In this document: piece by piece, positions 1-40,314 of the stretch | How positions within the stretch are numbered: position 1 is the first letter of the stretch | How the letters are laid out: every line of letters starts with the position of its first letter | Assembly: GCA_949710005.1 (NCBI GenBank) | Contig: OX453275.1 | Span: 31,444,718-31,508,717, forward strand | Origin: Ricordea florida | Lineage: Eukaryota > Cnidaria > Anthozoa > Corallimorpharia > Ricordeidae | Direction of reading: 5' to 3' | Length of the DNA stretch: 64,000 bases | Made by a program: the position numbers and the translations under genes | The notes under the pieces: generated by a model | Told to the model about the DNA's origin: nothing | Database searches by the model: none | What the model saw: only the letters and a program-made list of their open reading frames with translations

Positions 1-634
1 CTTGGGACGTTCGAGACACGCGTCATTTTGCTCTGTAGGATTGCATAGATTTCCTAGATTCAAACGTACTTGAAGTCTTGTAATGAATATAGAGCCGTTT
101 CCAATAGCGTCTTGTTGACTACTGAAGTTAGCAAATCCAGGCTAATCAATCTAACCATTTAAAACACAGGAATAAAGTCCAAACAAACTGATCAGAACTC
201 AAAGCAATGCAAATACATGTAGTCTACATTCATGTCCAAGTTTACAGCTCACTGGAAAACCCTGGCAAGACTACTACAGTTGGTTTAAATTTTTAAGTTA
301 AAGTTTTTAATATCATCTTGTAAAACTATAACTAACATATATTTTGACCTTTTTGTCCTTTTTTCCATTGTTACCTCAATTCTTTCTATCTTTTTTGTTT
401 TCATAATGATAATTTATAATGATTTTATCTGTAGTGTGGCAAAATGAAAATACAAAAGTAGATCTAGATACAATGCACAATTGGTTTAGAAAGATTCTGT
501 CGCCATTCTTTTCTCGCAGCTCTACAAAACCAAAGCAGTTGTGAAAGTAATTTCCAGATTAAGTTGGGAACCACTTTATGGTAATCTGAAAGTAATTTTA
601 AAGATCAACCTCAATTATTGTTATTTACTTTCAG

Positions 635-1468
635 TTTCCAGCAGTTGTGAGTCTTGACACTCAGAGTACATCATCAAATGCAAGTTCACAAAACAAAGAA
701 AGCTTAAAAACCAGACAATTTATTCCTAAGGACTGCACAAAACCTGGTAAACTTGGAGAATGCTCAAGTGACACTGATGTTTATACTGACACAGATGATG
801 ATGATGATGTTGCAATTGTCAATGAAGAGAGGACAAGCCTCTTCACTGCTCTAAAAAGTAGATTTAATAATAATGATAATTCTCACATGAGCACAACAAA
901 GGATTTGACAGCACAAGAGGATATAAACATTTCTGCCCAGAATTCTTGTATTAAAAGCAATGTGTGCAACAAAAAGTTAGCAAAGAGTCAAAAAACCAGT
1001 GAAATCATTGACCTTTCATCTTCAGACGATGATAATGTAAGTAGTGAGCACAAAAGCAGGGTGGCACGTCAAAACACAGAAACAGCAGGGAATGAATGTG
1101 TTGTGTTAGGATCACAGAAGCATAGAATATGGAAAACACTGCCTTCAGATAAGGACAACCATCAACAAAAATTTTCGTCAATCAAGAAATGTGTGGAAAA
1201 GTTTGTAGATTTATCTCAATCTGATTGCGAATCTGACTCCAACAGTGATGACAGTACTGAGCTTCCATGCATGCTGCCTCCCTCCTGTGTTTCCTTTGCC
1301 AAAGTGATGCATCAGACAGGATCAGAGTCAGACAAAAGTGTGGGTGGCATTGATTCAAGAACAAGAGAAAGCACTGCTGACTCTGACGAAGACTCTACAT
1401 GTAGGATTCCCTGCAAAAAGAAGAAGAGGTCAACCGAAGGGGTTCTTCTTCAAGGAAAAAAAAGTCTG
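635..1468 (+). CDS. EME1: EME1-like exon 2, copy A (disordered, SIM-containing)
   Basis: This internal exon of 278 codons, phase 0 at both ends, lies between a pyrimidine-rich TTTCAG acceptor and a G|GTAAGT donor. It has no ATG at its start because it is internal; the reading frame begins FPAVV. It is low complexity, rich in Ser, Asp, Lys and Thr. Two hydrophobic-acidic motifs, EIIDLSSSDDD and KFVDLSQSD, look like SUMO-interaction motifs, and CKKKKR near the end looks like a nuclear localisation signal. Human EME1 also has an acidic N-terminus with a SIM-like motif. The frame is open with no lesion, and copy B is about 96% identical in protein. Assignment to EME1 rests on the downstream ERCC4-like exon rather than on this exon. 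Confidence 0.75.
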
Positions 1469-1835
1469 GTAAGTAGCAATATCACTATTCAGTATTTTGT
1501 ATAGACATACACCTGTACTGTACTAGTTTAAAGTGCTCAAGGTAATATAAATTATCAAACACAAAATGGCTCTCAGTGAATCATCACATGTTAAACACCA
1601 AGAAGAGAGTTGTTATAAAAGACATTGCATGGCATTTTCGTTAAAGTTTGCTGATACCATATGGTGGCCAAACGTGTTTTTCTAGATTGATTGGTACATT
1701 ATTTCTGCTCAAACAAATCAAAATTTAAGATGCAAGGTTGAGGTGTGTTTCCTTCAAATTTCTAAACACATCTCATTGCTTAATTTGCTTGTCATTAGCA
1801 TGTATGTATTATTTGTCAATTTAAGAAGCTCTTAC

Positions 1836-2024
1836 CAGGGGTTTCAATAGAAGCCAGCAACCGGCGAATTTTGCCACCTTCTTCCCAAATCATCGCCGCC
1901 TACTTTCTAACATTAAACTTCTTTTTGGTCCCATGAGTTTCTTGAGTCACAGAATGTCTCACCTGTTTCAGCCGCCTACTTTAATATGGTCAGCCGTCTA
2001 CTTTAGAACTTACTGAAACCCCTG
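1836..2024. mobile_element. 189 bp hAT-like MITE, only in copy A
   Basis: The inverted ends are CAGGGGTTTCA and TGAAACCCCTG. The insert is flanked by the direct repeat TCTTAC (1830-1835 and 2025-2030). Copy B has the unoccupied site with one TCTTAC at 36,325-36,330, so the insertion followed the duplication. Ends starting CAGGGG suggest hAT, although a hAT target duplication is usually 8 bp and only 6 match here. No coding content. Confidence 0.75.
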
Positions 2025-3539
2025 TCTTACCCGTCATTGGCATTTTCATTTATAATTAACAGCTATATTTTTGCAAAAGAGTTCACTGGCATATAGTATT
2101 TTATGGTGATTTTGTTTTCAGGACTTTCTAGTTTTTAAAAAGACCAGTGTTACTCAGTCTGTATAATTTTGAGATTGGTTTTCCAGTATTTGGGTGTTTT
2201 TCACCACAGCAGCTTTTGACAGCCAAAGTTGTAACATGATTGCTGTTAAACCAGATGGAAAACATACTGTACTTTATTTTTATTAGCATCTCGAATTTCT
2301 CAGAAACAAAGAATAATGCAAAATACTCCAGGAGCTAAGTATAGAGAACGTGTGATACTACCATTATTGTACATGTACATGTTAATTGTGGAATGGAGTC
2401 TACCTGTTCTTATAATAATTGTAAGTTATTTACATGTTAAATAAATCAATATAAACATGTACTGGTACATGAAAAGATATTACTCAATTGTGACTGGTTA
2501 AGAGCAGTGCAGTTCAAGTGTACTTTAACACCAGTGCAAAAAGTGTAACACCAGTGCAAATTACAAATCAGAGTTTTTTTGTAATAAGTAAAAAGTAATT
2601 GTATGGCTTTCTTGTTCAATTTGTGATTTCTTTGCACTCGTTAGTTTTTTTCAAAAAGCTCACCTGTTTAAATAAATCGCAAATTGAACTTGAAACCATT
2701 ATGACAACCATTACAAATACTTAGGTGAAAAAGCAAGCATGGGATCAAACACAAGAGGCCAAAAAAGAAGAGAAGGAAAAAGAGAAACAGGCAAGACAAC
2801 TAGCCAGATCACAGTTAAGGAAACCAAAGTAAAAAGAAAAGCTTTTGAAACAGGTTTGTAGGTAACCAAACTTTTAATTCTTGTTTTAAGTGAGCTGAAA
2901 AAAAACTCCATTTTTCTGTTGAGGTGGTTAGATCAGTGCATGTACCTGTAGTCATTGTGCTAGAGAATGGCAACATGCATTTAATTACTTTCTACAGCTG
3001 TAAAGTTGAAACCAGTAATAGCACATGTATATGTATGTGTGTTTTTATAAAAAAAGTGAAGTATTAATAGCTTTGATTGATTTTTATCCAGTGAATGTTT
3101 GTTCTTGTGAAACAGATATTGTTCCTTTAGAGTTTACCATACTGTACATGTATGTAATTATTACTACATGTATAATTATTTTCTAGCAGTAAAGTTGTCA
3201 AAGAGACTCTCCATCATAGGAGAATGTTTTTTTTTTCTGACATCTCTCTCTTTTTTGGAACATTGACAAATCACAGCTGGAACAAACATGAAAGTGGCTG
3301 GCACTATCATTCTTTCAATAATTTATTGTTGAAATATGATTATGGCAATAGACCTTGGAAACAAGTGATTTATTCCTGGTATGACCAACTAGTTACTATT
3401 TTGGGGGTCTTTCTCCACCCTCCTCTTACTAAACCCATGTTCCATGTTGATTTATAGTACTGTATTAAATTGGAAACATCACTCCAATTCTGGCAACAAT
3501 TGATTGGGGAGTGGGGGACAATACAGACAAAGCTACCTT

Positions 3540-6115
3540 ATATTAGGCCATCTTTGCTGTTGTTGGGGAGCACAAGGCGTCAACATGGACCTCCACCTGA
3601 CTCTATTTTTGGCAGTTCTCTTTGCCTCTGTCCAAGTAATATGTTTTTCTTAGCAAGCTCATCTTGCACACTTTGCCTCCATGATTGCTTTGGGCGGCCT
3701 CTTCTTCTGAACCCCTGAGGATTCCACTCAGACGCGGAAGAAGTAACATTATTCCAGGCTTCCGAAGCGGATGCCCAATCCATTTTCATTGTCTTCTCTT
3801 AATGGTTTCTTCTGTGCGACTGTGTTGTGTCCTTACCCATAGTTCTTCATGTGAAATGACCTCTGGCCAATGGATATTCAGAAAGAAAACCCAGGGAAGT
3901 GCAGACTTTAAAGTCAGTGGCAGAGTTATAAGTGATGGTAGTCTTAAATCGAAAATATTAAAGAGACAATTCTTAAGTGTAATTACTAAGGAGGATCTTT
4001 AAAACATATTTCCCAAAATGGACTCTGATCCTAAACGTGCCCTCTGGTCATTAACAATCTCATTAACACGGAGTCCTGAAACAACTGTCTTCATTAAACC
4101 CTAACAAGGCCTTTGGCCCAGACCAGATTCATATTTTCATATTTTCTGAGAACTTTAGCTGACTGGAATTCTCTCCCTCAGGCCATTGTATTATCAAGTT
4201 CATTAGAGTCTTTTAAATCTTATCAGGTTTTCTTAAATATTAGTTATAAGGTCAATTTTATGAATTTTATTATTTTATGAGTTTTTTTTTTTTTATTGTC
4301 TTACGGTTGGTGTGATTCTTAGTAATTTTATGTAAGTTGTTGATGAACACTTGTTGATAAAGGTTTGCAATGTCTTAATCAGCAGTTTTGTCGATCTCCA
4401 TGTTTCCAAACGATACATAAGGACAGACTTCATGTTCATATTGAAAATCCTGAGTTTTGTTTGCAATCTGATACATTTTTCCTTCCACACAGGCATAAGC
4501 ATTGAGAATGGTGATTGCACCTTCCTTATCCTGGCTATTATGATTGTCCTTGTCAGTTCATTGATGATGCTTCCCAACAGCATCCCCATGAAGTTTCAAT
4601 GATTCTTGTTGCCTCACACTAATTCGCATCTGCTTTGTTTCATAAATGTTGATTTTGAACCCAACCTGCTCACCAGTCTCTTGTAGTTTTTCTCCTTTCA
4701 CTTGCATATCAACCAGTTGGTATGTTAGTAAGCAAAGATCGTCAGCATAGTCCAAGTCTTCTAGACATTGGGTCAATATCCACTGGAGACCCAAACCTTT
4801 ACCCTAATTTGTGTTCTTCAAAACCCAATCAAGTACCATGAGGAACAGCAACAGGGAAAAACATCCCTGTCTAACACCAGTCTAGACCTTGATGGACTCG
4901 GTCATATAGTTCCTCCATGAAGCACTTAGCAAGTAAAGCCGTGATACTGAACCTTAAGCATATTGATGACTTTATCAGGTATACCATAATGACGAAGATC
5001 CTCCACATAGCCTCCCTATCCAGAGAATCAAAGGCTTTCTCAAGCTCCACGAATAGCAAGTACAGGAGGGAAGACCACTCGATTGTTTGTTCTATAATAA
5101 TCCTCAGTGTGGCAATTTGACTGATGACTGATAACGACTCTTTCTAATTCCTGCCTGCTTATCTCTCAGGGCTTTGTAAACAGCCACCTTCATTCGGTTC
5201 AATATGAGAGCAACATTATTCCCCTCCAGTTACCACACAAACTATTAAAGGTTGCCTTTCTTTGCCAGCTTTACTAGAAGACCTTACTTCCATTCGTCTG
5301 GAATCTCTTCTTTCTCCCATACAAAATTTAGAATTCTATGCAGTGCTTCCACAATACAAGGCCTTCCCTGCTTCTATTCTTCAGGAGAGATGTTATCCAC
5401 CCCTGGAGCTTTGGCATTCTTCAGTTGATTGAGTGCTGTTCTAATTTCTCCTCTGTTAATAGGTCCTTTGTTGATGTTCAGGAAAACATCTGCAGGTCAA
5501 GGATCTGGTAATTGGCTTGGGGCTTGTCTGTTGAATATGGATTCAAAATGTCTTTTCTAACGCTGAAGGGCGATTCTGATTGCATTTTATCCCGCTACGT
5601 CTTCTGCTTCTCATGCAGTATGTGCTCTCAATTAAGTTCCTTTTGTCTCTTCGGCAAGATTTCTTAACCTCTCTGTTCTTCTCGTTGTAGTGACTGTTTG
5701 CTTCACATTTCCCTTGTCTTGTTTGAGCATCATTCAGTTTCTGTTTGGCCTTCTGTCTTTCTTCAATCTTCCTGTATTTCTTGTCAGATAGCTACCCCTT
5801 CCAGGTCCTTTCCATAAGTCCGAGAACACTCTCATGCGTATCAACAAGTATCATTTTATAATATCTTGGGCCTACACACCACCATCCTTGTCTACATTTC
5901 TTACTTCTTCTCATTCTTCTTTAAGGAATAGGGATTCAAACCGGTTTTGCAAACTCATTTTGAAAGGCCTGTTTTGTTTCAGGGTCTCACAGTTTCATGA
6001 CATCAAAATAATTTCCTTCTTGTAGTTATGAACGGCTTTATTGCAGCCAGCTTGATCTTTGGAGAAGCACTACCACAAGGTGATGGTCAGACCCAATATT
6101 GGCTTCCCTTTTTAC
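3540..6115 (-). mobile_element. Non-LTR retrotransposon remnant in an EME1 intron, copy A
   Basis: Read on the minus strand from the right: the SDHH motif of an APE-type endonuclease at about 6,070-6,105, the linker to the reverse transcriptase (NRGEIRTALNQLKNAKAPG-like, about 5,380-5,470), a FDSLDREAMW segment near 5,000, the catalytic YADD box near 4,745, and a C-terminal RRRGRPKQSW tail near 3,690. Many frameshifts and stops break it, so it is dead. It lies antisense to EME1. The same remnant is in copy B, so it predates the duplication. Copy B lacks the bases equivalent to about 2,990-4,080, including the C-terminal tail. I cannot assign the clade. Confidence 0.8.
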
Positions 6116-6949
6116 AATTCCCTTTTTACAAAAAAATTCATGCACATCCTGTAGTCTAGGTACATGTAATTAAGGATCTGACTTTAAGTTTTCTTAAGTA
6201 TTTCTTCTTAAAGATTGTACAGTAGCTACATGACATTAATTGTATTGCCCTGCCATGTAAAGAATTGCCTTTGCTTTTAAACCTCTTTTCAGGTCGACAA
6301 AATGAATCAGAAGGCAAATCGACTTGATACCTGTGTCAAGGTATGACTATCAGTATATTCAATGTTTTTTAAAAACTCATTAATAATGCATAAAGAAAAC
6401 ACAAAGGAAACAAATGTTTTGTAATGAGTGTCTTTGTATTTGATAAAGACACGGCTAACATTTGTGTTCAATTTTCTTGGTCAAAATACACCAAAATCCA
6501 AAGTTAAGTGTAATTATGAATAGGTCCATTTGAAGCCATTCAATAGGCTCACATTTCATGCTTTGTCAGTATAAAACAATTGGCTATACCTCATGTTTTA
6601 TACTTGATTAAGCACTTCTGCTTGTTTATTAAACCACACTTAAGAAATTAGTTTTCTTGAATTCTAATATTATTGTACATCATACTTCATTTTCTTTTGT
6701 CTGCTATTGAATTTGAATTGCCTGGAATGATTAAACAACAAAACTGTGAGGTGAAGATTTCTATAAGGTGATTTTGTAGTTGTTGAGAAGAAAAGCCCAA
6801 AGCCGACTGTCAACAGTTGGTGGGGACCACAGGTAGGCTGTCTTCTTGTTTAAGGAAAGTTCTTTTGAAAGGGAAAGTTACAGTACTCTATTATTGGAGA
6901 AAAGAAACTGGTCAGTGTGGGGGTGGGAAATTGAAACACACTAAAACAC

Positions 6950-7100
6950 TGTTTATAAATTAGTTGATAACGCAAGTTTTACCACTGTAGAATTTAAGGA
7001 TGCTGATGAGGGAATATGGGGGGTAATGAGGGGATTAGTGCTCACAATGTGAGCACCTCTTAAACCTCACAGTGGTAAATCTTGATTTATCAGCTTCTTT
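6950..7100. mobile_element. Short inverted-repeat element (MITE), copy A
   Basis: The left arm reads AGTTGATAACGCAAGTTTTACCACTG in short form, and the right arm is its complement (CAGTGGTAAATCTTGATTTATCAG in short form). The element is about 140 bp, non-coding, and shared with copy B (about 40,315-40,465). A related but different copy sits at about 50,740-50,895. Confidence 0.6.
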
Positions 7101-7308
7101 GATGAACTACATGTAGTTTTTGTGTGTTTTAATAAGCTTTTATTGACTTAAATCATCCTGAATTTAAAGTTTTCTTAAGAAACTAAACATTTAGTAAGAA
7201 TAAAAATATCAGTTTGGGTTAGTGTAAATTGTCAATGTTATTTTTAAAAGTAGCTATAGTTAGCAATTCCATGGCTGTGTACATGTTGTGATTGGGCAGA
7301 ACAAGCTT

Positions 7309-7359
7309 TTTATTATTATTATTTTTATTATTAATATTATTATTATTATTATCATATTA

Positions 7360-7397
<38 letters not shown>
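7309..7397. repeat. (ATT)n microsatellite, copy A
   Basis: A run of ATT/TAT trinucleotides with a few interruptions. The copy B counterpart (40,665-40,767) is longer. It lies just upstream of the 28 nt EME1 exon. A second shorter tract at about 7,647-7,690 is the site where copy B gained an ISL2EU insertion. Confidence 0.9.
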
Positions 7398-7748
7398 GTT
7401 ACAATTCTCTCTAGTTTTTTGTGTTGTTCTGGGTTTTCTGAGTCATGTCTTAACAACTCCCCGCAGCATAGAGGCACATCACTATCTGCAACAGGTGAGC
7501 AGTTCTGAGGATGACCAACAACTGTTAACTTCCAAGGGTTTCAGGTAGATCTGGCTTCCCGCACCAGGCTTTAGTGTTTTTTGAGATACATCCGAGTGCA
7601 CCAATTATGACTGGTAATACTGTCACTTTTTAGGCTCCATGAATCCTTATTATCATTATTATTATTAATATTATTTATTATTATTATTACACTGGTGTTG
7701 ATTTCATCACCCTGAATTAAAATCTGCACTATTTTTACTTTCTTTTAG

Positions 7749-7928
7749 CAAATTCTCGTTTCTATTGACCCTGCTTTGTTGAACATTGGCCAGCTTCAAG
7801 AGGAAAGTGTTCTCGTTCAAACGTTGAACGATTTGGGAGCTGGTTACAACATAAAGCCCCAGCCTACCCCTGCCAGTGTGACATGGCAGAGGACTGTCTT
7901 TGAGCATGATGTAGGGGGAACACTTCAG
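7749..7928 (+). CDS. EME1: EME1-like exon with start of the ERCC4-type domain, copy A
   Basis: Sixty codons, phase 0 at both ends, acceptor TTTTAG and donor CAG|GTAAGT. The first strand (QILVSIDPALLN) and the PASVTWQR segment match the beginning of the non-catalytic nuclease-like domain of EME1, where other EME1 proteins have a DP-LL strand and an SVTW motif. The exon is undamaged here. Copy B carries a TAG and a one-base deletion in the same exon. Nothing resembling the next exons of the domain could be found between this exon and the ROCO gene. Confidence 0.75.
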
Positions 7929-8604
7929 GTAAGTTTAATATCAAAGAAAAGCAACTATTCTGGAATGCTTTTAGACAGAGGACGTTTACTAAGGAGAGTC
8001 TAGTTTCATCAAACACTTAAACAGTTCTACGCTACGGAGTGCTACCTCTGGTGAGACGTTTCTGTCAATCGAACATGTTTTAGCAGGCGCGCCTTCTGTA
8101 GTTAATACATGTTGAAAGAACGTTCTTGACTACATTACGACCGATTTGACGGGCCTGCGAAGTTAGTCTCAAAAATAAGGTGTGCCGGTGATCATGGTAC
8201 AAGTACATGCGCGTTGTTTTAGATTTCACCCTTTTCACGTAAAGTTTGTGGTTAGAAACTCTTTCGTTCTAAACCTGCAGTGTTAAATTGCGTAGGAAAT
8301 CTTCATCAATGTCTCCACTAGCAGTGCAAGTTAGTATATGATTTGTTTCATGTATTCAGCAAATTTTTTCCAAAGATCATGGCGGGAATTGCAGCATATT
8401 TTGTGGGAATAAGTTGTCTAATAAAACAATTTTTTTATAGGTTCACGGCGACTGTTGAAGAGCCAAGGGTCACAAACTAAACAACTTGTCGCAATCAAAG
8501 TAGCGGGGCGGGATATTGCTTTTACTAATCAAGTAAAATCAGGAATCATGGATTATCGATGATTTAATCAATGATACGCGAATGTAAACTGAAATACTAT
8601 TCAA

Positions 8605-9026
8605 GTATAATACAAAATCTAAATACTTATAATGATAATAAATTTGTATATCGCTCTTTTTCATATGGATATGTTCAAAGGCGCTTTGGATCAATTCTAC
8701 TATTACTTAATGAATTAATTAATTATTTACAATCAAACTTTATCAAAGGTCGACCACAACACTGGGGTCTACGTCCCCTACTCCATTCTAACAGTGTTGT
8801 GGGATATTTAACGTCTCATAAGAACAGCGTTGTGAGACGGGGCCTACAGTTTTTCGTCCTTATTCGAGAAGACTAGAATGTCTAACCATTTGCATATTTC
8901 ATAACAAAGGCAGTACATTCTCCTCAGTTATTTTAAGACCTTGAGTGCTGGTCCGGCCGAGGTTTGAACTCACGACCTTCCGCTCGACAGGCCGGCACTC
9001 TAACAACTGAGATAACGGGGCGGCGG
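8605..9026 (-). mobile_element. tRNA-headed SINE, copy A
   Basis: On the minus strand the right end reads like a tRNA gene: an A-box-like stretch (GTTAGCTCAGTTGGTAGAG in the better-kept copy B) followed by a B box (GAGTTCAAACCTC). A conserved body of about 300 bp and an AT-rich tail follow. Four copies of the family are in this window (also 19,185, 20,330 and 46,295), all with the tRNA head on the minus strand. This copy and 46,295-46,716 are the same insertion duplicated. The rest of 7,929-10,834 holds no gene that I can recognise. Confidence 0.85.
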
Positions 9027-10834
9027 TTATACACAGCAGTTAGTAAATAAGATGAAAATATAATACACCAAGGGCAGAAGGTACTATTTAAAAAGCTACA
9101 AATACATGACTACAGTTAATATTTGGGGGTGTATGCGTGAGTGCCATTGCAAGTGAAACGTGACAGCTGGAAAAAAAAACTAAGTTACTAGAAATGCCTA
9201 AGGGCGAAAAAAAGGGCTAAGAATATGTAAAACGGTTTTGATTACGCTAATTTAGTGCTCAATGAGGCGAAAAGAGAAGTTGTATAGACTAAGGCCTTGT
9301 CACGTGGCTAAACTTAAAACTCACGGTAAAGGGAATTACAAAGTATTAAGCACTAGAAAAAACAATTATCCTAGGCAAATATATCCCAACAAAGGTATCG
9401 AGATAACTGCACCTACACATCGGATCCCCCTCGGGCTCTAAGTAGCCAAAGATTGATGACTACAAAAAAAGACCTTGTCTAACTAAAACACTTTAACTGG
9501 AGGCGACAACTACTGAAGACTAAAAGCTACTGGTAAAATTCCGCTATTATCTACTAAATATTTCCACTTGTAAGGCCAATGTGTAACGCCAAACAAAATT
9601 GACCAATCAGGGAGAATCATTTGTAATGATCGAAAACAGACAAGCCTCACTTTGGTGTTCTGTACAATTATTACAGCAAATCAAACAGCACCCAAGTCAC
9701 TCATCCTTCAAAACACTTTAAATATATACATTATGCACTTCTGGGAGTGAAAGGGATAAACTAAAACTAAGAAGAAACTTGAAGTGGCTTGGCCAATGCA
9801 GTTGTTTAATATTTATCCATTAGCAGTGATGATCACACCAGCACATGAAATTATCACAAATTCCTAAGGAAATAAGAACAAAGACAATACTTCAATTGGA
9901 ATAATATCCTGCTGACCAAATTTATTACAGCAAGTGTTTGTAGCCAATGCATATATCTGGAAAGCGGTTTTAAAAAGCAAACAATAATCACAGTGAGCAT
10001 TGAGAAAATTAGTTTTACCTTAAAGTATATTTACCACTAGATAATCTCCAAATATTCTTAAAACAAAATGTATGGCACTCACTAAGGAGAATTGCTACTC
10101 GTATCCAGAGAGTAAAAGGGTTACATGAATCACAAAATTCCTTCACAGTGTGGTCATCTGATTTTGTCTGAAAAGATTTGCATTTATGATAAATTCGCTC
10201 CAACAGAGGCCTACTCTGGGACCTTGAGTCTCATTAAGTCTACTTAAATTGCCATGTTTATTTTTTCCGTAAATTTTGCTTAGGTCGCCTAAAGTCGCCC
10301 AAAGTTACGGTGACTTAGGGTCCCAGAGTACTGTAGGCCTTAACAACATGTTTTAACTTTTTTGTTCACAGAACTGACTTAACCACTTCCAGCTATCAAT
10401 TAATGCAGCAAGCTACATGTGTGATATATAGGTTTCCTTAAATTTTTGGTAACTACATGTATCAGTTAGTAAATATTCTAAGAAATACATGCAGTAACTA
10501 ACATGAAATTAGAATAGATGCAGATAGTGTTTTTACCATGCTAAGTTGTTCAAACATATTCAGTTTGGTAAAGTATATAAAATACTATCTACAGCTTGTT
10601 GGGAAACTCAGCTTCACAGATTATTGTTCATGTCGTGGATGTAATGTAAATTTCCCAGGTTACCATTACCATAGTGTATTTATACCTTCGCTTCAGTGGT
10701 AACTGATAAAAACACAGGATCAGGTGTCATTACAGTCCTCCTACATGAACAATGGCTGATTCGTGTTCCGATCGTCATCATTAAGAATAAAGATTGTTTA
10801 ACGACAGGATTTGAATTTATATATCTACACTAAC

Positions 10835-11139
10835 CTAGTATTTCATCTTGCAGCAGAACTTTCGTACCAAATCCCTCCTGCCCACCTCATTCAGACCCTT
10901 GGCCAGGTTCCCGTATGTAGCTGCACTTCCCTCTCTGTCCATCCATTTTATTAACATTTGGTAACTTTTATCATATGATTTAGGGGAATCGGAATCTATT
11001 TCATCAAGGCGCGCATCTGGCAGGTCTAGGGCGCGTCCAAACTGTTTCCAGTTGCCGCCTTCAAGTACGCGATAGGCTAGGTCGTCGATCTCTTGTTCAG
11101 TGGGGCTGCCATCCTTGTAAGACCACTGCTCCTCAGCGG
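10835..11139 (-). CDS. ROCO copy A exon 4: death domain 2 and C-terminus
   Basis: The 305 nt terminal exon begins after a CAG acceptor with AEEQWSYKDG. It contains a death domain (LAYRVLEGGNWKQFGRALDL, DEIDSDSP, GLNEVGRRDLVRKF) and stops with TAG at 10,835. Copy B 49,312-49,616 is nearly identical. Death domain 2 is the one kept in both genes. Confidence 0.88.
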
Positions 11140-14100
11140 CTGTATAAGAAGAAGAGGTACCTTTAGTTGTTAATACAACCATTGATAAAGTAACAGGAAG
11201 GGAAATGGGTGACGACTTTACCAAACGCTAAGTGATAGTGCGGTGTAAGTGTAGACACGGTTTGTAAACTCCAAATACAGTGGGACCTCTATTAAAGGGC
11301 CACCCTCGGGACTTTGAAAAGTGGCCACTAAATAGAGGTAAAAAAATAGATGGGGCAGAAATGGCGGTCAAAGTGATTTATTTACTCTATATGGCAAAAT
11401 CCTTTTTGAAAAGAGGAAAAACCCTTCTCAGAAAGCATTTTGCCATACAGAGTCAACAAATCACGTTGACCGCCATTTCTGCCCAATTTATTTTGTAAAA
11501 AATACGTGAATTGAGTTACCATTCAAACAAGACGATCTAAGATCGTGAGTCGGGCAACAGGTAGACGTACTGTTATGAGTGTTGACCACTCATGGTGCGG
11601 AATGGTCCAAAAAAGAAATGCTAAGGGTACCAAGGTCCAGGTTTCAAACGTGGCATTTTTGTTATCGTTTCCTCGAGTTTCATCGCGAGGCACCTTGTCT
11701 TAATCAGCACATGCTCTTCTGTAACTCTATCCACATTTTCTCTCCACTGGTAACTCGCTTGATTTCTGGTTTGATTCTAGTGAGATATTCGCTAAATCCT
11801 TTGATTCTTTTGCTATTTTCAGTTCGCGGAACGACCCGTTTCGAAATATACGCTCATTACACATGCCATCTTTTAGAGTGGGTCTACCGCGAACGGTTTG
11901 TGGGTCTGTATGTTTGAGTGTAGAAAAGATGACACCATTTGTTTTCAACATATTCGCCATCGACTTCGACATCGCAGAAAGAAGTTTGCGCCCGTATTAC
12001 GTGTCTGCGGTATTCCCATTGCACGTGACTGCGATTTGCGATGAAACTCGAGGGTAAACCTATAGTCGGTTGCCCGACTAATAAATCCATCAACATAAAA
12101 CAAAACTTAGACCTTCTTTATCACGCCAACAGTCTGTGAAAAATCTATCGTAGTTCAAAGCCTTTGATTTGTGAAAGATTTCCTTGTGTATACAATTTTC
12201 GGCTTGTGACTTGTCATTACAATGGAGATTAAATTGCAGTTCTCGTTGTTATCAGTTATCACCTATTCTTGGTGCCGTATCACGAAAAGATAATTCACTG
12301 GTCGCTTAATAGAGGTAAAAAAGCGATAAATAATGACCTTGCAACAACAAAAAGGTGGCTGCGGCCGCTAATGGAGGCGACCATTGAAAATGGCCATCAA
12401 ATACAGCAATTCAGTGACAAATAATTCGGGACTTTACTTACAATAAGAACTCTCTTCAAAGCCTGGTGCAGCCTGCACAGCACAGTACTTGAACACAAGG
12501 TCTACTCTGTTGATGTTTTTTAGTGCTCGACCCAGATCTTCGCAGGTAAGCGGAAACCTGGCCTGGTACCATGCTTTTAACATGACGTAGCACTGCTCAT
12601 AGGTCTGTCCTGGATTGTCAGCCTCAATCTGAGTGAGGTGATCGTCTGTTAGGCCCAACTCACGGCCAAGTGCCTTCCAACGAGCGCAAGCATCTTGAGA
12701 AAGACAGTGAAGTACTTTCTCTGAGAGACTGCCACTCTTGTACGTGATATTCTGCAAAGAATCTATAATAGAAGAAAATGTCCTGATAAGTCACAGCTGC
12801 ACAAAGATGTGCTGGACACTTACACTTCTCAAATCTTGACACTTAATTCAAATCTTGTCTTCCAGTACATAATGATCATACCAACATAATTTTAATGAAG
12901 AAACAAAAAATTATATGCAAACATACCATAAAATATCACTGACAACGTAAAACAATCTGACTGAGGTAATTCACGGGTTTTCCAACTTGAAGCAACAAGT
13001 GGCTGTTACTCTGTAGATAATCAAGATTCTAGTCCAGTCCATTCCACCGGGGCAACTTCCATCAAACATTTTACTGAGGGGTACTTATCGCATATTTTCG
13101 AAAAACATCCCAAAAGGTACAAAAACCAGGTTTGATGGGCGTAGCTAAAATAAATCCTTACTCTCAAGGAGTACTAATTCAAAAACTGAATGTGGACCCT
13201 TTCATTGTTGATGAATGAATGAGAAAACAGTGAGAACCAATTGACTGACAAATAGTTCCTGTCATATTTTTAAGCCATAATTTTTACCCCATAAGGTACC
13301 GCGATAATTCTATCAGTGGTATAATTTTGGATTTTGCATCCCAAGAGGTAGCAATCTACAAACTTTAACCACAAAAGGTACGACAATAACCCATGCCAGT
13401 TTATTTATGAGAGCCGCTACAGGCCATTCTAGTCCACTGAAGATTATCCACGTCATTATTTTAGCAGTATCCATTTTTTCTAAAAACATTAACCACTGTA
13501 CCTTAATCTTGGTCAAGAAGCAACTCGGGGTTTTTAGACATGTTTTTTTAGCTGTAGTTACGAAGGATTTGCACTCTGCTATGTTTTAATAGTCAGTTAA
13601 GACCTGACTGTTTGGGACTCATTTCTGACTTGCCGGTCGGTCTTGAAAATGTCTTGATCAATGCACTACACCCTGGATTTACCACAAACCGTTCCCAAGA
13701 CATACTAAGAAATTGGACAAGCGTGAGTAATGTGAGGGGGAAGGAAACAAAGGGGAAGTGACACGAAGTGAGCTGAGGGGATCTTAAGGTAAGTAAAGTT
13801 TAAAAGAATCAAGCATCTTTTGGATCTTTTATTCAGTACCTGGGTAGCTGGAAAGGCAGGTGGTGTCTTTCTGTACCACTTGATTCTGGTACTGCTCCAA
13901 CATTTTTTGGTGCAGCCGATAGTCTATGAGAAACGAGAGAAATAAGAGCAAGTGTAAACTCATAACTTTCTATCAACAAAAGTTGCTTAGCCGAGTCTCG
14001 GGAATCTACTCTAAAACTGTTTCTTAATTTAAATAGATATTGTCCACGTCTTCTACAAAGACTTCTGTAAAATAAGTGACAAGGAAGAAAGATTCTGCGG

Positions 14101-17100
14101 GCATAACACAACAACACTTAAAAGAAATTTTGATAAAAAAAAAAACATCGCGATAAGGTGATCACAACGTGACAAGCGGCTTGACAAAAGAACAAAGTCC
14201 TCTGTAACAAAGACCAGTAAAAAAACTATTTGTGACAGTTTTAGCCCCTTGGTCCTCTAAGGATGGGAGCTAATATGCCTTGTTTGCCCTCACAAATAAT
14301 TTAAGATGAGTTGCTCTTTCTCTTTGATGAGTTGTTCTTTCTGTTTGACCACGCTTGTAGGTCATGAATTGATATATGTGAAAGAATTTAGAAAAAGCGT
14401 AATTAGTGTTATATACAGATACTCACCATCACCATCTTTGATTGGGTAGACCAGACAAGCTGGTATGCGCTCGTTGTGGTGATTACAACTCACTTTTCCT
14501 CTGGGGCAATCAGTCTCCAGCTGTTTGGATTTAAATATTCCAGGCGGCGTGATTCCCCTGCGAATGCAGTGAGGGCAGAGTATCCAACATTCCCATCTGA
14601 GACCAGCCCAGTCACTCATCACTGCCTTCAGTTCCTGGTGACACGACAGTAGCACTTTCCACACTTCAACAAGGTCTGACCCTTCAACAGACACGCGAAT
14701 GACCTTTTCCGTGGATTGGTCAGATCTGTGAACAAGCATTTCTGTTTCTCCGACAAATGCATACACTCCATCTTTCCATTCATGACGACTTTTGATGTCG
14801 TCTACATGGCGATGAAGACGCACAACGAAAGTGTGATACACAGGTGGAGGACACCTGGCTGGATACCGGAACCTGAGCCGTAAGCGGTATGACTCTTGAC
14901 AAGGGCATTCATTTAACATTTTCTGAACTCCCGACATCTTTGGTGCCTCCTCAGTTAAGAACCAAGGGAAACGAAGACACTTGTTGCCAAATGCATCATC
15001 CATTGGATAGCACAGGTCTAGCTGAACCAGCAACTCAGACATTGCGATGAAAAGCTCCCTTTTCAGGTCAAGATGGTTCCAAAGACCTAATAAAAGTTTA
15101 TAGGACATAATTCCTCTCTTCAGCAAGTCCTCTTTGGCTTCCTCGAAAGAATCTGCGGTGAAGAGAAACCTGAAATGTCCGTGATAGGAAAGGGATTCAG
15201 TACTGAGCCGCTCTGAAAACACAGCTTTCATGAGCTCCGTAAGAAACTCTGGCCTGTGAAACACGAACTTTCTGACCTCACTGGAGTGTTTATACCATAG
15301 TAAGGAGCCAATATCGTGAAAAAAAGTGAGAACAATTTCTGCTTGGCTCATTTCGTCTTTATCAATGCGGGATTGTGAGATCGGCTTGTCAGACTTCACC
15401 ACTGCTTTCAGTTCTTGTTCATTGTTCTCGTCGTCCTGTAGTTGCGCTCTGATGACTTCCTCAACAAAAGTTAAGGTCAAAAAATGTTGACCCATACCAA
15501 TCTCTGATTTCTGTAACTTTTTGTGGATACCTGACCATCGTGCGGGAACCATCTTTCCATGCTTTGAGATAAAGTCAATTAGAACGTTCCTTAGAACGTC
15601 AATGCCGGTAAAGAGAGAGGACGAGACCAGATACACTTGGTTGGACACAATGTCAATCTTTTGGCAATCTTCATCTTTTGCTAGACACAGAATATCTTGT
15701 AGAACTTGATCGCGTCTGCAATGGGTTTTCTCTTCGTCTTCTAAGCGGTCAATGTGTGTTCCCACCAGAACAACTGAAGCTTTTGGCACTCGACTCGTTA
15801 TCACATCTAGCCAGCAGCGAACGTCTCCATGGAACGTTTTCTCTGAATATCTTTCTAGATTAACCACAAGTAGTATCAGAGCATCTTTATCCAAGAACAA
15901 ATGATGTACTATCTGGTACCACTGGTTTCCACCAAAGTCCGCCATAGTGATGTTGAGAATTTTCCCACCCCCTTCAACCTCCCATGTTCTCCTATCTAAC
16001 ACGATGGTTCTGTCTTCTTCTCGAACACAAGATGGTTTGTTGTTCAATAACGTGTTTGCAAGGCTAGTTTTACCAGCACCACTTGCACCAATAAGAACCA
16101 CTTTATGGTGAAAGGTCTTTCCACGTCTTAATTCCAGGAAATAGGCACGAATAGCAGACAAGCCACGGTCGCAGACTTCACTGGGAGGAACTTTAAGAGG
16201 GTTTCTTCTTAGGTCAAGTGTAGAAAGGTTCTCTAGTTGACAAATGGCTTCTGGTATCTCTTCGAGCCTGTTGTTCATCAATTTAAGATTCTTCAGCTTA
16301 TTCAGGGCTGCAATGTTGTCAGGTATACTGGTCAATTGGTTAGATGATATATCAAGCGTGTACAATTCCTTTAACTTACAAATGGCTTGAGGAAGTTTTT
16401 GCACATTATTTCCAATCAGGAGAAGTGTTGCAAGCTGATCCAGATCTCCAATACCGTCAGGTATGCTGGATAACGAGTTCCATCTAACGTTCAGTTTCCC
16501 CAGCTTCTTTAACTTCAACACAGCCTCAGGTATCTGTACCAGGTTATTGTGATTTACATCAAGTTCTTGAAGCTGATCCAGAGTTCCAATACCGTCAGGT
16601 ATGCTGGATAACGAGTTTCCTGAAACGTTCAGTTTCACCAGCTTCTTTAACTTGAACACAGCCTCAGGTATCTGTACCAGTTTATTGAAACCTAAATCAA
16701 GTTCTTGAAGCTGATCCAGACTTCCAATACCGTCAGGTATGCTGGATAACGAGTTACGTGAAACGTTCAGTTGCACCAGCTTCTTTAACTTGAACAGAGC
16801 CTCAGGTATCTGTACCAGTTCATTGAAACTTACATCAAGTTCTTGGAGCTGTTCCAGACTTCCAATACCGTCAGGTATGCTGGATAACGAGTTCCGTGAA
16901 ACGTTCAGTTTCACCAGCTTCTTTAACTTGAACACAGCCTCAGGTATCTGTACCAGTTTATTGAAACCTAAATCAAGTTCTTGAAGCTGTTCCAGACTTC
17001 CAATACCGTCAGGTATGCTGGATAACGAGTTCCGTGAAACGTTGAGTTTTACCAGCTTCTTTAACTTGAACACAGCCTCAGGTATCTGTACCAGTTCATT

Positions 17101-18693
17101 AAAACTTACATTAAGTTCTTGGAGCTGTTCCAGACTTCCAATACCGTCAAGAATGCTGGATAACAAGTTCCGTGAAACGTTCAGTTTCACCAGCTTTTTT
17201 ATCTTGAACACAGCCTCAGGTATCTGTACCAGGTTATTGTTACTTACATCAAATTCTTGAAGCTGATCCAGACTTCCAATACCGTCAGGTATGCTGGATA
17301 ACGAGTTTCGTGAAACGTTCAGTTTCACCAGCTTCTTTAACTTGAACACAGCCTCAGGTATCTGTACCAGTTTATTGCTTCTTACATCAAGTTCTTGAAG
17401 CTGATCCAGAGTTCCAATACCGTCAGGTATGCTGGATAACAAGTTCCCTGAAACGTTCAGTTTCACTAGCTTCTTTAACTTGAACACAGCCTCAGGTATC
17501 TGTACCAGTTTAGTGTCACTTACATCAAGTTTTTGAAGCTGATCCAGAGTTCCAATACCGTCAGGAATGCTGGATAACCAGTTCCCTGAAACGCTCAGTT
17601 GCACCAGCTTCTTCAACTTGAACACAGACTCAGGTATCTTTACCAGTGTAGTGTGACTTACATCAAGTTCTTGAAGCTGATCCAGAGTTCCAATATCGTC
17701 AGGAATGCTGGATAACCAGTTCCCTGAAACGCTCAGTTGCACCAGCTTCTTTAACTTGAACACAGCCTTAGGTATCTGTACCAGTGTAGTGTGACTTACA
17801 TCAAGTTCTCGAAGCTGATCCAGAGTTCCAATACCGTCAGGAATGCTGAATAACGAGTTCTCTGAAACGTTCAGTTTCACCAGCTTCTTTAACTTGAACA
17901 CAGCCTTAGGTATCTGTACCAGTTTATTGTGACTTACATCAAGTTCTTGAAGCTGATCCAGAGTTCCAATACCGTCGGGAATGCTGAATAACGAGTTCTC
18001 TGAAACGTTCAGTTTCACCAGCTTCTTTAACTTGAACACAGCCTTAGGTATCTGTAGCAGTTTATTGTGACTTACATCAAGTTCTTGAAGCTGATCCAGA
18101 GTTCCAATACCGTCAGGAATGCTGGATAACAAGTTCCCTGAAACGTTCAGTTTCACTAGCTTCTTTAACTTGAACACAGCCTTAGGTATCTGTACCAGTT
18201 TATTGTGACTTACATCAAGTTCTTGAAGCTCTTTCAGATAGACTGCGATCTTTGCACGTTGGTTCTGCGAAATGTTCAGCTTACGTAGATTCTTCAACTT
18301 GCACATAACGTCTGGTACTTCTTTGAGGATGTTATCCTTCAGGTCAAGTTCTTCAAGTTGCCCTAGACCTTTAATTCCCTCTCCGATTGTCATCAGGCGG
18401 TTGTGTGAAAAGTCTAGCTTGATGAGGTTCTTGAGCGCACTAATAACATCTGGGAACTTTCGCAATCTATTCTTTTCTAAGTGAAGTTCCTTTAACTGGG
18501 ACAGATTGGAAAAACTGTCAGGCAATTCTTCAAGGCTATTATTTGACAAAACTAAGACTTCCAAGTCCATCATTCTTGTAACACCCTCTGGAACGTGAGT
18601 CAGATGTTTGCCATCCAAGTTTAGTCCCTTGAGTCCATCTGAAGTGATGAAAACCAACTTTTCGAGCTCTTCGGTGCTGAACGTGTCCTCCAT
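10835..18693 (-). CDS. LRR-Roc-COR protein with two death domains (ROCO family), copy A
   Basis: Four exons on the minus strand: 18693-14427, 13923-13840, 12762-12442, 11139-10835 (stop TAG). Every intron has GT-AG borders and phase 1, giving 1658 aa. The order is: N-terminal LRRs; a regular array of 13 two-LRR units; a Roc GTPase with P-loop GASGAGKTS (about residue 869), DFGGNQ and THID; COR; a short linker exon; death domain 1; death domain 2. Roc-COR modules bind GTP and dimerise; death domains recruit signalling partners. DAPK1 and MFHAS1 are relatives by architecture. A cytoplasmic immune or cell-death role is likely but inferred. I chose the ATG at 18,693 because copy B starts at the equivalent codon. 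An in-frame ATG at 19,035 would add 114 residues from DNA absent in copy B. Confidence 0.85.
11278..12432. mobile_element. pogo/Tigger-like MITE, right end lost, split by another insertion
   Basis: The left end CAGTGGGACCTCTATTAA follows a TA. It matches the complete copy B element at 49,755-50,404. Here the last 60 or so bases are missing and the sequence joins directly to the splice donor of death-domain exon 1. An insert of about 545 bp (11,535-12,081), with AGTCGGGCAAC / GTTGCCCGACT ends, interrupts it and is absent from copy B. Confidence 0.7.
11535..12081. mobile_element. Copy A-specific insert with AGTCGGGCAAC inverted ends
   Basis: Copy B reads straight through this point (ATTCAAATAAATCC near 49,977). 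Short inverted ends AGTCGGGCAAC and GTTGCCCGACT border most of it, with about 20 extra bases at the left end. No convincing coding content. Superfamily unknown. Confidence 0.55.
12442..12762 (-). CDS. ROCO copy A exon 3: death domain 1 (missing from copy B)
   Basis: Symmetric phase 1-1 exon of 321 nt. It encodes a death-domain fold with the hallmark core W (ARWKALGRELGL), DHLTQIEADNPG and a terminal NRVDLVFKYC helix. No equivalent is found in copy B. Its 5' splice donor GTAAGT lies within about 10 bp of the broken end of a pogo-like MITE. Because the exon is symmetric, its presence or absence leaves the frame intact. Confidence 0.85.
13840..13923 (-). CDS. ROCO copy A exon 2 (linker)
   Basis: An 84 nt exon, phase 1 at both sides, encodes YRLHQKMLEQYQNQ and then a Ser/Thr-rich tail to SSYP. 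It is a short helical, coiled-coil-like linker between COR and the death domains. The copy B counterpart (51,223-51,173) shares YRLHQ and then diverges and is shorter. The interval 12,763-13,839 between exons holds no recognisable gene. Confidence 0.7.
14427..18693 (-). CDS. ROCO copy A exon 1: LRR array, Roc, COR
   Basis: A single 4.27 kb exon encodes 1422 codons plus one base. Residues about 20-830 are 23-residue LRRs. The Roc domain starts with HHKVVLIGASGAGKTS; the switch region has MADFGGNQWYQ, which fits a DxGG G3 motif, and VGTHIDRL gives the G4 motif. COR follows, to about residue 1400. The exon ends ..KDGDG at a G|GTGAGT donor (phase 1). No frameshift or stop is present despite the repetitive array, which argues for selection. 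A large single exon holding LRR-Roc-COR is unusual compared with vertebrate LRRK genes but resembles MFHAS1. Confidence 0.88.
16440..18235 (-). repeat. Tandem 138 bp coding repeat (13 two-LRR units), copy A
   Basis: The unit encodes 46 residues: one LRR of type LVQIPEAVFKLKKLVKLNVS and one of type SIPDGIGTLDQLQELDVS. Thirteen IPDGIG-type steps can be counted (with variants PDDIG and LDGIG). Copy B has eleven. Unit-to-unit changes cluster right after the QELD strand (SHNK, SHTT, RSNK, GFNK, SFNE). Confidence 0.92.
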
Positions 18694-18727
18694 TATTATC
18701 TGATTGAATGAAGGAACGTATTCACGT

Positions 18728-19058
18728 ATCAAGAAAACCGGCTCAACATTGATAACAATAGGCATTGTTATAAGACCTAAAATTGGTCTTATATGGTCAT
18801 TTTGAACAATGGCGGTATAAGCTTCTAAATGCTCGCTGGAGTTTTTGAAATTTCCGATTACCATACGAGCTCGAAATTTAAACGATCGGAAAGATTGAAT
18901 GGAAGACAAATTCTCCCGAGGGGAGATGGTATTGGTATAATCCTGTCGGTGCAAATAGTTGCGATGGGGTGGCTGGTGGGGTGACGGTTGTACACATGTA
19001 TTTAAAAGTGAAAGTAAAAGCTGCCGACAAGGCATCTTTTTGCTTTAAAATAGTGGCA
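18728..19058. other. 331 bp segment present only in copy A, upstream of the ROCO start
   Basis: Copy B joins GTATTCAC directly to TATGCTGTCAAG (about 55,759). In copy A 331 bp lie between these words. On the minus strand the segment is open in frame with the ROCO exon and contains an ATG at 19,035, so it could add a new N-terminus, or it could be leader sequence lost from copy B. No domain recognised. Confidence 0.6.
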
Positions 19059-34158: not shown

Positions 34159-35135
34159 GTATGATAACAGACTGAAGAGACGAGAGATTATCAAGACACA
34201 ACTTAGCTTGTAAAAAACGGGCTGCCGATTTCTACTGGGGCAATCACTAAAGAGACAGTTCAGATGGTAGTTATTTCACTTTTTTCAGGTCGTTAAATTA
34301 TCATGCAGCCCCTAGCTTTTTGGACGAGCACGTAAATGTTTGAAATTGCCACTGCCCCATTGGCTTTGAGTGTCCAAGTCTTTGTTGTGACTGGGGAAAA
34401 ACATACTACCGTCTTGAATATATTCCTTTCACCTAGAAAACGTTTGAAGGTGATTCTCAATTTTTATTCACGTCATAGACAGGCAGTGTAAAAATGTACC
34501 TAATTTGGGACGTTCGAGACACGCGTCATTTTGCTCTGTAGGATTGCATAGATTTCCTAGATTCAAACGTACTTGAAGTCTTGTAATGGATATAGAGCCG
34601 TTTCCAATAGCGTCTTGTTGACTATTGAAGTTAGCAAATCCAGACTAATCAATCTAACCGTTTAAAACACAGGAATAAAGTCCAAACAAACTGATCAGAA
34701 CTCAAAGCAATGCAAATACATGTAGTCTACATTCATGTCCAAGTTTACAGCTCACTGGAAAACCCTGGCAAGACTACTACAGTTGGTTTAAATTTTTAAG
34801 TTAAAGTTTTTAATATCATCTTGTAAAACTATAACTAACATAGATTTTTTCCTTTTAGGCCTCCTTTCCATTGTTACCTCAATTCTTTCTATCTTTTTTG
34901 TTTTCATAATGATAATTTATAATGATTTTATCTGTAAAGTGGCAAAATGAAAATACAAAAATAGATCTAGATACAATGCACAATTGGTTTAGAAAGATTC
35001 TGTTGCCATTCTTTTCTCACAGCTCTACAAAACCAAAGCAGTTGTGAAAGTAATTTCCAGATTAAGTTGGGAACCACTTTATGGTAATCTGAAAGTAATT
35101 AAATATCAACCTCAATTATTGTTATTTACTTTCAG

Positions 35136-35969
35136 TTTCCAGCAGTTGTGAGTCTTGACACTCAGAGTACATCATCAGATGCAAGTTCACAAAACAAAGA
35201 AAGCTTAAAAACCAGACAATTTATTCCTAAGGACTGCACAAAACCTTGCAAACTTGGAGAATGCTCAAGTGACACTGATGTTTATACTGACACAGATGAT
35301 GATGATGATGTTGCAATTCTCAATGAAGAGAGGACAAGCCTCTTCACTGCTCTAAAAAGTAGATTTAATAATAATGATACCTCTCGCATGAGCACAACAA
35401 AGGATTTGACAGCACAAGAGGATATAAACATTTCTGCCCAGAATTCTTCTATTAAAAGCAATGTGTGCAACAAAAAGTTAGCAAAGAGTCAAAAAACCAG
35501 TGAAATCATTGATCTTTCATCTTCAGACGATGATAATGTAAGTAGTGAGCACAAAAGCAGGGTGGCACGTCAAAACACAGAAACAGCAGGGAATGAATGT
35601 GTTGTGTTAGGATCACAGAAGCATAGAATATGGAAAACACTGCCTTCAGATAAGGACAACCATCAACAAAAATTTTCGTCAATCAAGAAATGTGTGGAAA
35701 AGTTTGTAGATTTATCTCAATCTGATTGCGAATCTGACTCCAACAGTGATGACAGTACTGAGCTTCCATGCATGCTGCCTCCCTCCTGTGTTTCCTTTGC
35801 CAAAGTGATGCATCAGACAGGATCAGAGTCAGACAAAAGTATGAGTGGCATTGATTCAAGAACACGAGAAAGCACTGCTGACTCTGATGAAGACTCTACA
35901 TGTAGGATTCCCTGCAAAAAGAAGAAGGGGTCAACCGAAGGGGTTCTTCATCAAGGAAAAAAAAGTCTG
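35136..35969 (+). CDS. EME1: EME1-like exon 2, copy B
   Basis: 834 nt, phase 0, same borders as copy A 635-1468, with open frame and about ten amino-acid differences. Both SUMO-interaction-like motifs are kept. The basic cluster reads CKKKKG instead of CKKKKR. Confidence 0.75.
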
Positions 35970-39480: not shown

Positions 39481-40314
39481 TCCCTTTTTACAAAGAAAGT
39501 CATGCACATCCTGTAGTCTAGGTACATGTAATTAAGAGTCTGACTTTAAGTTTTCTTAAGTATTTCCTCTTAAAGATTGTACAGTAGCTACATGACATTA
39601 ATTGTATTGCCCTGCAATGTAAAGAATTTCTTTTGCTTTTAAACCTCTTTTCAGGCAGACAAAATGAATCAGAAGGCAAATCGACTTGATACCTGTGTCA
39701 AGGTATGACTATCAGTATATTCAATGTGTTTCAAAAACTCATTAATAATGCATAAAGAAAACACAAAGGAAATAAATGTTTTGTAATGAGTGTCTTTGTA
39801 TTTGATAAAGACACGGCTAACATTTGTGTTCAATTTTCTTGGTCAAAATACACCAAAATCCAAAGTTAAGTGTAATTATGAATAGGTCCATTTGAAGCCA
39901 TTCAATAGGCTCATATTTCATGCTTTGTCAGTATAAAACAATTGGCTATACCTCATGTTTTATACTTGATTAAGCACTTCTGCTTGTTTATTAAACTACC
40001 CTTAAGAACTTAGTTTTCTTGAATTCTAATATTATTGTACATCATACTTCATTTTCTTTTGCCTGCTATTGAATTTAAATTGCCTGGAATGATTAAACAA
40101 CAAAACTGTGAGGTGAAGATTTCTATAAGGTGATTTTGTAGTTGTTGAGAAGAAAAGCCCAAAGCCGACTGTCAACAGTTGGTGGGGACCACAGGTAGGC
40201 TGTCTTCTTGTTTAAGGAAAGTTCTTTTGAAAGGGAAAGTTACAGTACTCTGTTATTGGAGAAAAGAAACTGGTCAGTGTGGGGGTGGGAAATTGAAACA
40301 CACTAAAACACTGT

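Follow-up and report, generated by a model that had tools for sequence, protein, structure and literature searches.

Candidate ROCO receptors of the corallimorpharian Ricordea florida, with leucine-rich repeat arrays that vary by whole two-repeat units

Introduction

A 64,000-nucleotide stretch of the Ricordea florida genome (hereafter the window; C4:31444718-31508717) carries two genes, A and B, each encoding a long array of leucine-rich repeats (LRRs) followed by a Roc GTPase domain and a COR domain, the latter two forming a switch half typical of ROCO proteins. Together with relatives elsewhere in the genome they make up at least 11 ROCO genes, which are rather likely to be receptors with a renewable LRR array that is turned over by unequal exchange. 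The evidence comes from array lengths that change in steps of one 46-residue unit, from variation that is concentrated on one predicted face of the LRR solenoid, from signs of selection on that face, and from duplicated tracts and mosaic genes. All results concern a single assembly of 538 Mb in 48 contigs.

A gene family with quantised array length

A search of the genome with protein B returned at least 53 matches. Overlapping loci were resolved into 13 open reading frames (ORFs) of at least 300 residues with an LRR-like pattern, 11 of which have the common start and the array. Two ORFs on C14 (602 and 671 residues) do not belong to the eleven that start with MEDTFSTE or MADTFSTE and were excluded. 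Matches outside the studied set lie on C6, C12, C14, C2, C7, C10 and C16, at C1:9.3 Mb and C4:22.0 Mb, and as a fragment at C4:31802746. The 11 delimited genes, A to K, have open frames of 1172 to 1906 codons. Nine are located at C4:31.4-32.0 Mb, four of them (C, A, B, D) on the minus strand and the other five (G, E, H, I, J) on the plus strand; F lies at C4:0.24 Mb and K on C1.

Two classes of unit are distinguished, class I in genes A to F and class II in genes G to K, none of the latter being in the window. The units are 138 bp long, encode two 23-residue LRRs each and are about 90% alike. Genes A to F contain 13, 11, 10, 12, 12 and 9 units, respectively, and genes G to K 9, 17, 22, 21 and 13, giving 67 class I and 82 class II units and a range of 9 to 22 per gene. 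These counts omit the diverged LRRs that precede residue 272 (H, I, J and K) or 134 (G) in class II, and in both classes the LRRs past the last unit. The P-loop begins at residues 869, 777, 731, 823, 823 and 685 in A to F, and at 597, 1103, 1333, 1287 and 919 in G to K; modulo 46 these positions equal 41 in all six class I genes and 45 in all five of class II. As this remainder is constant within each class across the 11 genes, the distance from the start to the P-loop varies within a class in steps of whole two-LRR units only.

The two window genes illustrate the rule. An earlier note on this DNA had counted 13 units in A and 11 in B, placed their P-loops 92 residues (exactly two units) apart, found both frames intact and proposed expansion and contraction in 46-residue steps, all of which was borne out. 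Reading the minus strand from the common start MEDTFSTE gave unit numbers that agree with Tandem Repeats Finder, which reported a 138-bp repeat in 13.0 copies in A (16432-18230, score 2933) and in 11.0 copies in B (53741-55263, score 2416), and the P-loops start at the residues given above, an offset of 92. Coordinates are collected in Table 1.

Table 1. Features of the window genes and of the two chimeric genes. Positions are those of the window unless preceded by C4.
Feature	Position	Strand	Remarks
Gene A, LRR-Roc-COR (ROCO)	14362..18693	-	Single open frame, 1443 residues from the conserved MEDTFSTE Met
A, N-terminal 152 residues	18238..18693	-	Diverged LRRs outside the array
A, array	16444..18237	-	13 tandem 138-bp units, two 23-residue LRRs per unit; residues 153-750
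A, Roc GTPase domain	15748..16104	-	Pfam PF08477
A, P-loop GASGAGKT	16066..16089	-	Residues 869-876
A, COR-A + COR-B	14494..15357	-	Pfam PF16095 and PF25497
Gene B, LRR-Roc-COR	51671..55726	-	Single open frame, 1351 residues
B, array	53753..55270	-	11 tandem 138-bp units; residues 153-658
B, Roc GTPase domain	53057..53413	-	Pfam PF08477
B, P-loop GASGAGKT	53375..53398	-	Residues 777-784
B, COR-A + COR-B	51803..52666	-	Pfam PF16095 (35.8 bits, cut-off 35.3) and PF25497
Segmental duplication, left copy, with gene A	2..18729	.	May extend past the window edge
Segmental duplication, right copy, with gene B	34505..55761	.	
Gene E	C4:31867489-31872006	+	Class I 5' flank and array, mainly class II Roc-COR and 3' flank
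Gene G	C4:31795593-31799108	+	Class II array, class I tail and 3' flank

The switch half is preserved throughout the family. All 11 genes retain intact P-loop, DFGG and GTHID motifs, and COR-A exceeds the cut-off in each of them in the genome search. A Pfam scan of A and B identified LRRs, Roc, COR-A and COR-B in both proteins; the COR-A match of A fell just under the cut-off in that scan (33.7 bits against 35.3) and reached 36.9 bits in the genome search. The C-terminal half of B also matched Roc structures of LRRK2 with phmmer (E 1.4e-12). In A and B the Roc domain is directly followed by COR, as defines the ROCO family, and according to Pfam the two proteins consist of LRR-Roc-COR only, the domain content of the MFHAS1 subfamily. 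Among their Pfam matches there was no LRRK-type kinase after COR, and in the scan of these two proteins no kinase, NACHT or NB-ARC model matched anywhere. A zinc-finger-like Cys/His pattern at the C-terminus was dropped, since the regular expression matched none of the 11 proteins. No relatives were confirmed in viral contigs.

The genome holds at least 38 COR-A matches, 30 of which are marked over the cut-off, and those beyond the 11 genes show a broader ROCO expansion. Further COR-A clusters occur at C11:22.4-24.4 Mb (8 matches) and C15:20.15-20.30 Mb (7, most of which stay below the cut-off); the frames that hold them measure 538-887 residues.

Position of variable residues on the repeats

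Variation among units is concentrated in a few columns. Column entropy peaks at LRR position 11 in both LRRs of the pair (2.3-2.9 bits) and is also high at positions 6, 8 and 10, while most leucine, isoleucine and proline positions are nearly invariant. Positions 6, 8, 10 and 11 are predicted to be on the concave face, from the LRR pattern and a structural model. Mean entropy of these concave columns is 1.47 bits in class I, compared with 0.36 for the rest (Mann-Whitney P 3e-5), and 1.77 compared with 0.29 in class II (P 5e-5). That the units vary on a short exposed stretch had been noted before and stands, the concave columns being the most variable; what had been overlooked is the similar variation in the second LRR of the pair, where position 11 reaches 2.33 bits (2.89 in the first LRR) and position 6 reaches 1.65 (0.90 in the first).

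The model of residues 1-770 of B, made with AlphaFold2 without an alignment, is of modest confidence (mean predicted local distance difference test score 65, predicted template modelling (TM) score 0.52). In its better part, approximately residues 470-735, strands occupy LRR positions 6-10 or 6-11 and a short helix positions 19-23. From about residue 200 to 460, longer and less regular strands still cover positions 6-10 in most repeats. Foldseek matched the model to LRR proteins including FLS2, SHOC2 and TLR8, with low query TM-scores of 0.2-0.5 among the matches listed.

A further explanation of the length differences would be structural or scaffold expansion, in which selection favours longer solenoids because they reach further or can bind one conserved partner in several copies; length would then matter and not the sequence of the face. 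The wide, quantised range of 9 to 22 units is what such selection might produce. Variation is, however, strongest on the concave face, at position 11 above all, which a single conserved partner would not favour, and we regard this explanation as improbable.

Tests for selection on the concave face

Ratios of nonsynonymous to synonymous divergence (dN/dS) were estimated by the Nei-Gojobori method from pooled pairs of units, which are not independent of one another. At positions 5, 6, 8, 10 and 11 the pooled ratio is 1.94 in class I (bootstrap 1.57-2.39) and 2.37 in class II (bootstrap 1.95-2.86); core positions gave 0.54 and 0.21, and the remaining positions 0.97 and 0.71, respectively. The 24 units of A and B alone gave 1.71 (1.13-3.35) at the same five positions. 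In addition, disjoint pairs were picked closest first, with at most six differences per pair, and compared at positions 6, 8, 10 and 11. The 25 class II pairs have 40 nonsynonymous (N) changes and 1 synonymous (S) change at concave sites, a ratio of the proportions of such changes (pN/pS) of 11.7 (P = 3.5e-4), and 300 random pairings under three cut-offs gave class II medians of 2.6-3.0. A codon model with fixed partitions, run on the tree of units, assigned the concave sites ratios of 4.5 in class I and 5.4 in class II. Trees built from non-concave columns only fitted much worse (class I log-likelihood -1572 vs -1346, with a concave ratio of 8.7; class II -3162 vs -1647, with a ratio of 2.0), and their P-values were not used. 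For dN/dS of the Roc-COR half, pairs of class I genes gave 0.40-0.53 and pairs of class II genes 0.29-0.78.

From these comparisons of units, diversifying selection on the concave face has good support in class II and is no more than suggested in class I, the class of A and B. The excess of dN/dS above 1 at exposed positions, which the earlier note had offered as a check, is therefore found in class II and, within class I, in the pooled and tree-based ratios; it does not extend to the recent disjoint pairs of class I, for which positive selection was not significant.

A number of results weigh against the interpretation of the family as receptors with a renewable array. The class I recent disjoint pairs have concave ratios of 0.84 (9.5 N, 2.5 S; not significant) and 0.61, both below 1, and the class I medians of the 300 random pairings, 1.15-1.73, are not significant either. 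Exposed positions off the concave face also change: in class I disjoint pairs they have an N excess of 27.5 to 0.5 (P = 0.003), in the units of A and B their dN/dS of 1.72 (1.02-3.37) equals that of the concave set, and the fourth most variable column of class I is position 23 of the second LRR, which is not concave. The P-values of the codon model ignore recombination and are hence unsafe. Synonymous divergence in class I is 0.157 at concave columns and 0.058-0.082 elsewhere, so that part of the pattern may reflect exchange that homogenises the backbone. Homogenisation within genes is weak, as only 7 of the 11 genes have a smaller mean difference among their own units than to units of other genes; strong within-gene concerted evolution was accordingly not found. 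Furthermore, the intactness of the 11 genes derives partly from their selection, the frames having been picked for start and array, and the short fragment C4:31802746-31802952 hints at a partial copy.

Some of these results are those expected from neutral, minisatellite-like instability, under which only whole units would be tolerated, unconstrained exposed residues would drift and the array would have no recognition role. Repeat arrays are unstable by nature, the concave pN/pS of recent class I pairs does not exceed 1, and other exposed positions appear to evolve freely, as the pooled class I value of 0.97 and the value for the A and B units suggest. The 40:1 excess at class II concave sites, together with the medians from random pairings, is nevertheless beyond neutral drift, the core and the Roc-COR half stay constrained, and frames remain open across arrays of up to 22 units. 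Neutral instability is thus judged unlikely, though it is the alternative that deserves the most weight.

Gain, loss and exchange of units

Exact internal tracts of at least 150 bp at lags of whole units are found in 6 of the 11 genes (B, D, F, H, I and J). Gene J has the longest one, which measures 481 bp and has a lag of four units, and the array of B contains an exact 220-bp repeat at a lag of one unit. No such tract of 150 bp or more is present in A, C, E, G or K. Exact internal duplications of this kind fit unequal exchange, the mechanism proposed for the window genes in the earlier note; of these two genes, B has them and A does not.

Alignment unit by unit, at a gap cost of 9 chosen by us, shows how arrays have been reworked. 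The Roc-COR halves of I and J differ by a dS of 0.010, and the best alignment of their arrays leaves three units found only in I and two found only in J. Genes B, D, E and F have many identical units in common, in altered number and order. In the alignment of A with B, four A units and two B units remain unmatched and the matched units differ at 7-16 of 138 bases. With gaps on both sides and diverged matched units, the two-unit difference between A and B is a net result; a single two-unit deletion was rejected, the units being mostly not positional equivalents. Identical pairs of units, within and between genes, number 27 in class I and 17 in class II.

Chimeric genes E and G

Exchange seems to have reached beyond the array. 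Class I and class II coding sequences diverge by a mean of 3.5% over the first 225 bp and 27% over the next 225 bp (30 pairs), and points of class switch were located from fixed class differences counted per 75-bp block. The N-terminal parts of D and E have a dS of 0 and a dN of 0.003, with no synonymous difference across the first 152 codons; both genes have 12 units, with 20 differences in total, and their 5' flanks are similar across the 3.4 kb compared. Their Roc-COR halves have a dS of 0.20. Gene E is of class II from just after the P-loop, with later class I patches, and its 3' flank has 96.4% identity with that of I in a block reaching 1.46 kb beyond the stop codon. Gene G is of class II until the start of COR and of class I from there on, including the 3' flank (90.4% with A). 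These mosaic patterns indicate that parts of genes have been exchanged between the classes.

Near-identical long repeats are hard to assemble, and the lack of synonymous differences in the first 152 codons of D and E is what might be expected if repeats had been collapsed or expanded, or alternative haplotypes placed as paralogues, but such an assembly artefact is very improbable, since flanks differ in several pairs (B and D, and E and I, match upstream only from -32), the genes are 37 kb to 31 Mb apart on C4, with a further one on C1, all arrays keep the frame and are whole multiples of 46 in length, and Roc-COR halves within class I differ by dS of 0.05-0.20.

Proposed mechanism and function

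For the interpretation preferred here, that of receptors with a renewable array, the following sequence of events is proposed. The array would provide a renewable binding surface on a protein composed of an LRR solenoid, a Roc GTPase and COR. Two-LRR units would be gained, lost and swapped in frame, within and between genes, by unequal crossing-over or gene conversion, and recombination in the Roc-COR half would couple arrays of one class with switch halves of the other. Substitutions at concave positions 6, 8, 10 and 11 would be retained, with the core and the GTPase under purifying selection. The concave face may then bind varied ligands, such as microbial, symbiont or self markers, and binding may be relayed to the Roc-COR switch, with innate immunity or self/non-self recognition as the possible output.

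No signal peptide is apparent at the N-terminus, as judged by eye only, and the highest hydropathy over 19 residues is 1.48 (four proteins tested), so that a cytosolic location is probable. The combination of a constant backbone with a variable binding face and an intact switch fits a recognition receptor, with a possible role in immunity, symbiosis or allorecognition. A bolder proposal is that these genes constitute a germline, perhaps also somatic, repertoire of ROCO receptors with arrays rebuilt in two-LRR steps and switch domains swapped, an animal counterpart of the fungal hnwd allorecognition genes. This must be considered doubtful. If true, in a colonial or symbiotic anthozoan such a repertoire could decide symbiont acceptance or self/non-self fusion. 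Fungi are known to have receptors with repeat arrays that renew themselves (WD40 with NACHT), and such receptors have been proposed for brown algae (LRR exons with ROCO). If an animal follows this logic too, in a third arrangement with two-LRR units inside one open frame and a Roc-COR switch, ROCO arrays would be a convergent way of generating recognition diversity.

Comparison with known systems

The LRR-ROCO genes of the brown algae Ectocarpus and Saccharina are reported to have the same LRR-Roc-COR order, 23-residue LRRs, large arrays of up to 49 LRRs and a large family, with an immune role proposed, and positive selection is described at four concave sites, 14, 16, 18 and 19 (PMC11378527). 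Judged by the common x-L-x-L-x-x spacing, these sites would correspond to positions 6, 8, 10 and 11 here. The algal genes are described as differing in that each LRR occupies a 72-bp exon of its own, and in their shuffling of exons and alternative splicing (PMC11378527). In all 11 Ricordea genes the unit comprises two LRRs and a single open frame spans the array, with no 72-bp single-LRR exons, so that diversity must arise from DNA exchange inside the frame.

The hnwd or NWD genes of Podospora, among them het-d, het-e and het-r, are likewise described as combining a nucleotide-binding switch with an array of highly similar repeats of variable unit number, in a family of ten genes that exchange units within and between genes (PMC1805685, PMC2873952, PMC12222747). 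Four codons per WD40 unit, on the binding surface, are reported to be under strong positive selection (PMC1805685, PMC2873952). A WD40 propeller and NACHT take the place of LRR and Roc-COR in these genes (PMC1805685, PMC2873952, PMC12222747). Variation of repeat number in whole units among family members, as in hnwd, is present here in the 9-22 units per gene; repeat-number polymorphism, spontaneous rearrangement and recognition are, according to those reports, demonstrated by experiment for hnwd, whereas the evidence on the ROCO arrays described here comes from sequence.

In plant nucleotide-binding LRR proteins (NLRs), LRR residues of the arrays are under diversifying selection and recombination takes place within and between loci. 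They differ in their switch, which is Roc-COR in A and B, where NB-ARC was not matched. To our knowledge, no high-identity array occurs in human MFHAS1. This protein, also named MASL1, is an animal LRR-Roc-COR protein without kinase and has the same domain order; human MFHAS1 is reported to be linked to innate responses, and MFHAS1 to occur, among protostomes and deuterostomes, in deuterostomes only (PMC4104024). In Acropora larvae an MFHAS1-like gene is reported to be down-regulated on meeting the native symbiont (PMC8861010). Corals are described as having many tandemly amplified innate receptor genes (PMC10236652), actiniarians as having LRR-Roc-TIR genes (PMC5094078) and Aplysia as having TIR proteins with Roc-COR (PMC9334734). 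A passage of a study of tandem repeats across the Nematostella proteome mentions leucine-rich repeats, as an example only (PMC2805694). Among the titles and abstract openings listed from open-licence literature, none reports such arrays in animal ROCO genes, which is weak evidence of absence.

Surroundings of the window genes and further observations

Genes A and B lie in the two copies of a segmental duplication, which are 90-97% identical in collinear blocks of at least 300 bp, broken by insertions, with offsets of 33-38 kb. A stretch of about 330 bp upstream of the initial Met (window 18693 in A), ending near -32, is present in A, D, E and F, where it adds 117-123 codons to the open frame counted from the previous stop. 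Gene C is without it, and the extension of A is thus probably no part of the protein; the 114-residue N-terminal ORF extension of A, which lies mostly within this stretch, was therefore rejected.

The same duplication includes a duplicated ORF rich in acidic serine stretches (window 647-1504 and 35148-36020, plus strand), the first copy of which had no Pfam match. Weak Phage_integrase (tyrosine recombinase) matches at window 22227-22721 and 30258-30743 (plus strand) are probably remains of mobile elements, and a THAP-domain ORF at window 42332-42910 (minus strand; PF05485, E 3.2e-14) is perhaps transposon-related. A 55-bp tandem repeat of 7 copies with 93% matches occupies window 43812-44194.

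Outside C4, contig C48 is mitochondrial, and its features point to an anthozoan of hexacoral-like type. Three ATP-synthase C matches lie on C7 and C8 and none on C48, an argument against a typical demosponge. The cox1 gene of C48 (C48:5053-7588) is split by about 1.1 kb holding a long open frame, presumably a group I intron. In the first exon of cox1, one TGA stands at a Trp position, 16 ATA at Ile positions and 4 AGR at Arg positions. Such codon usage is that of the code of cnidarians and sponges, not of bilaterians.

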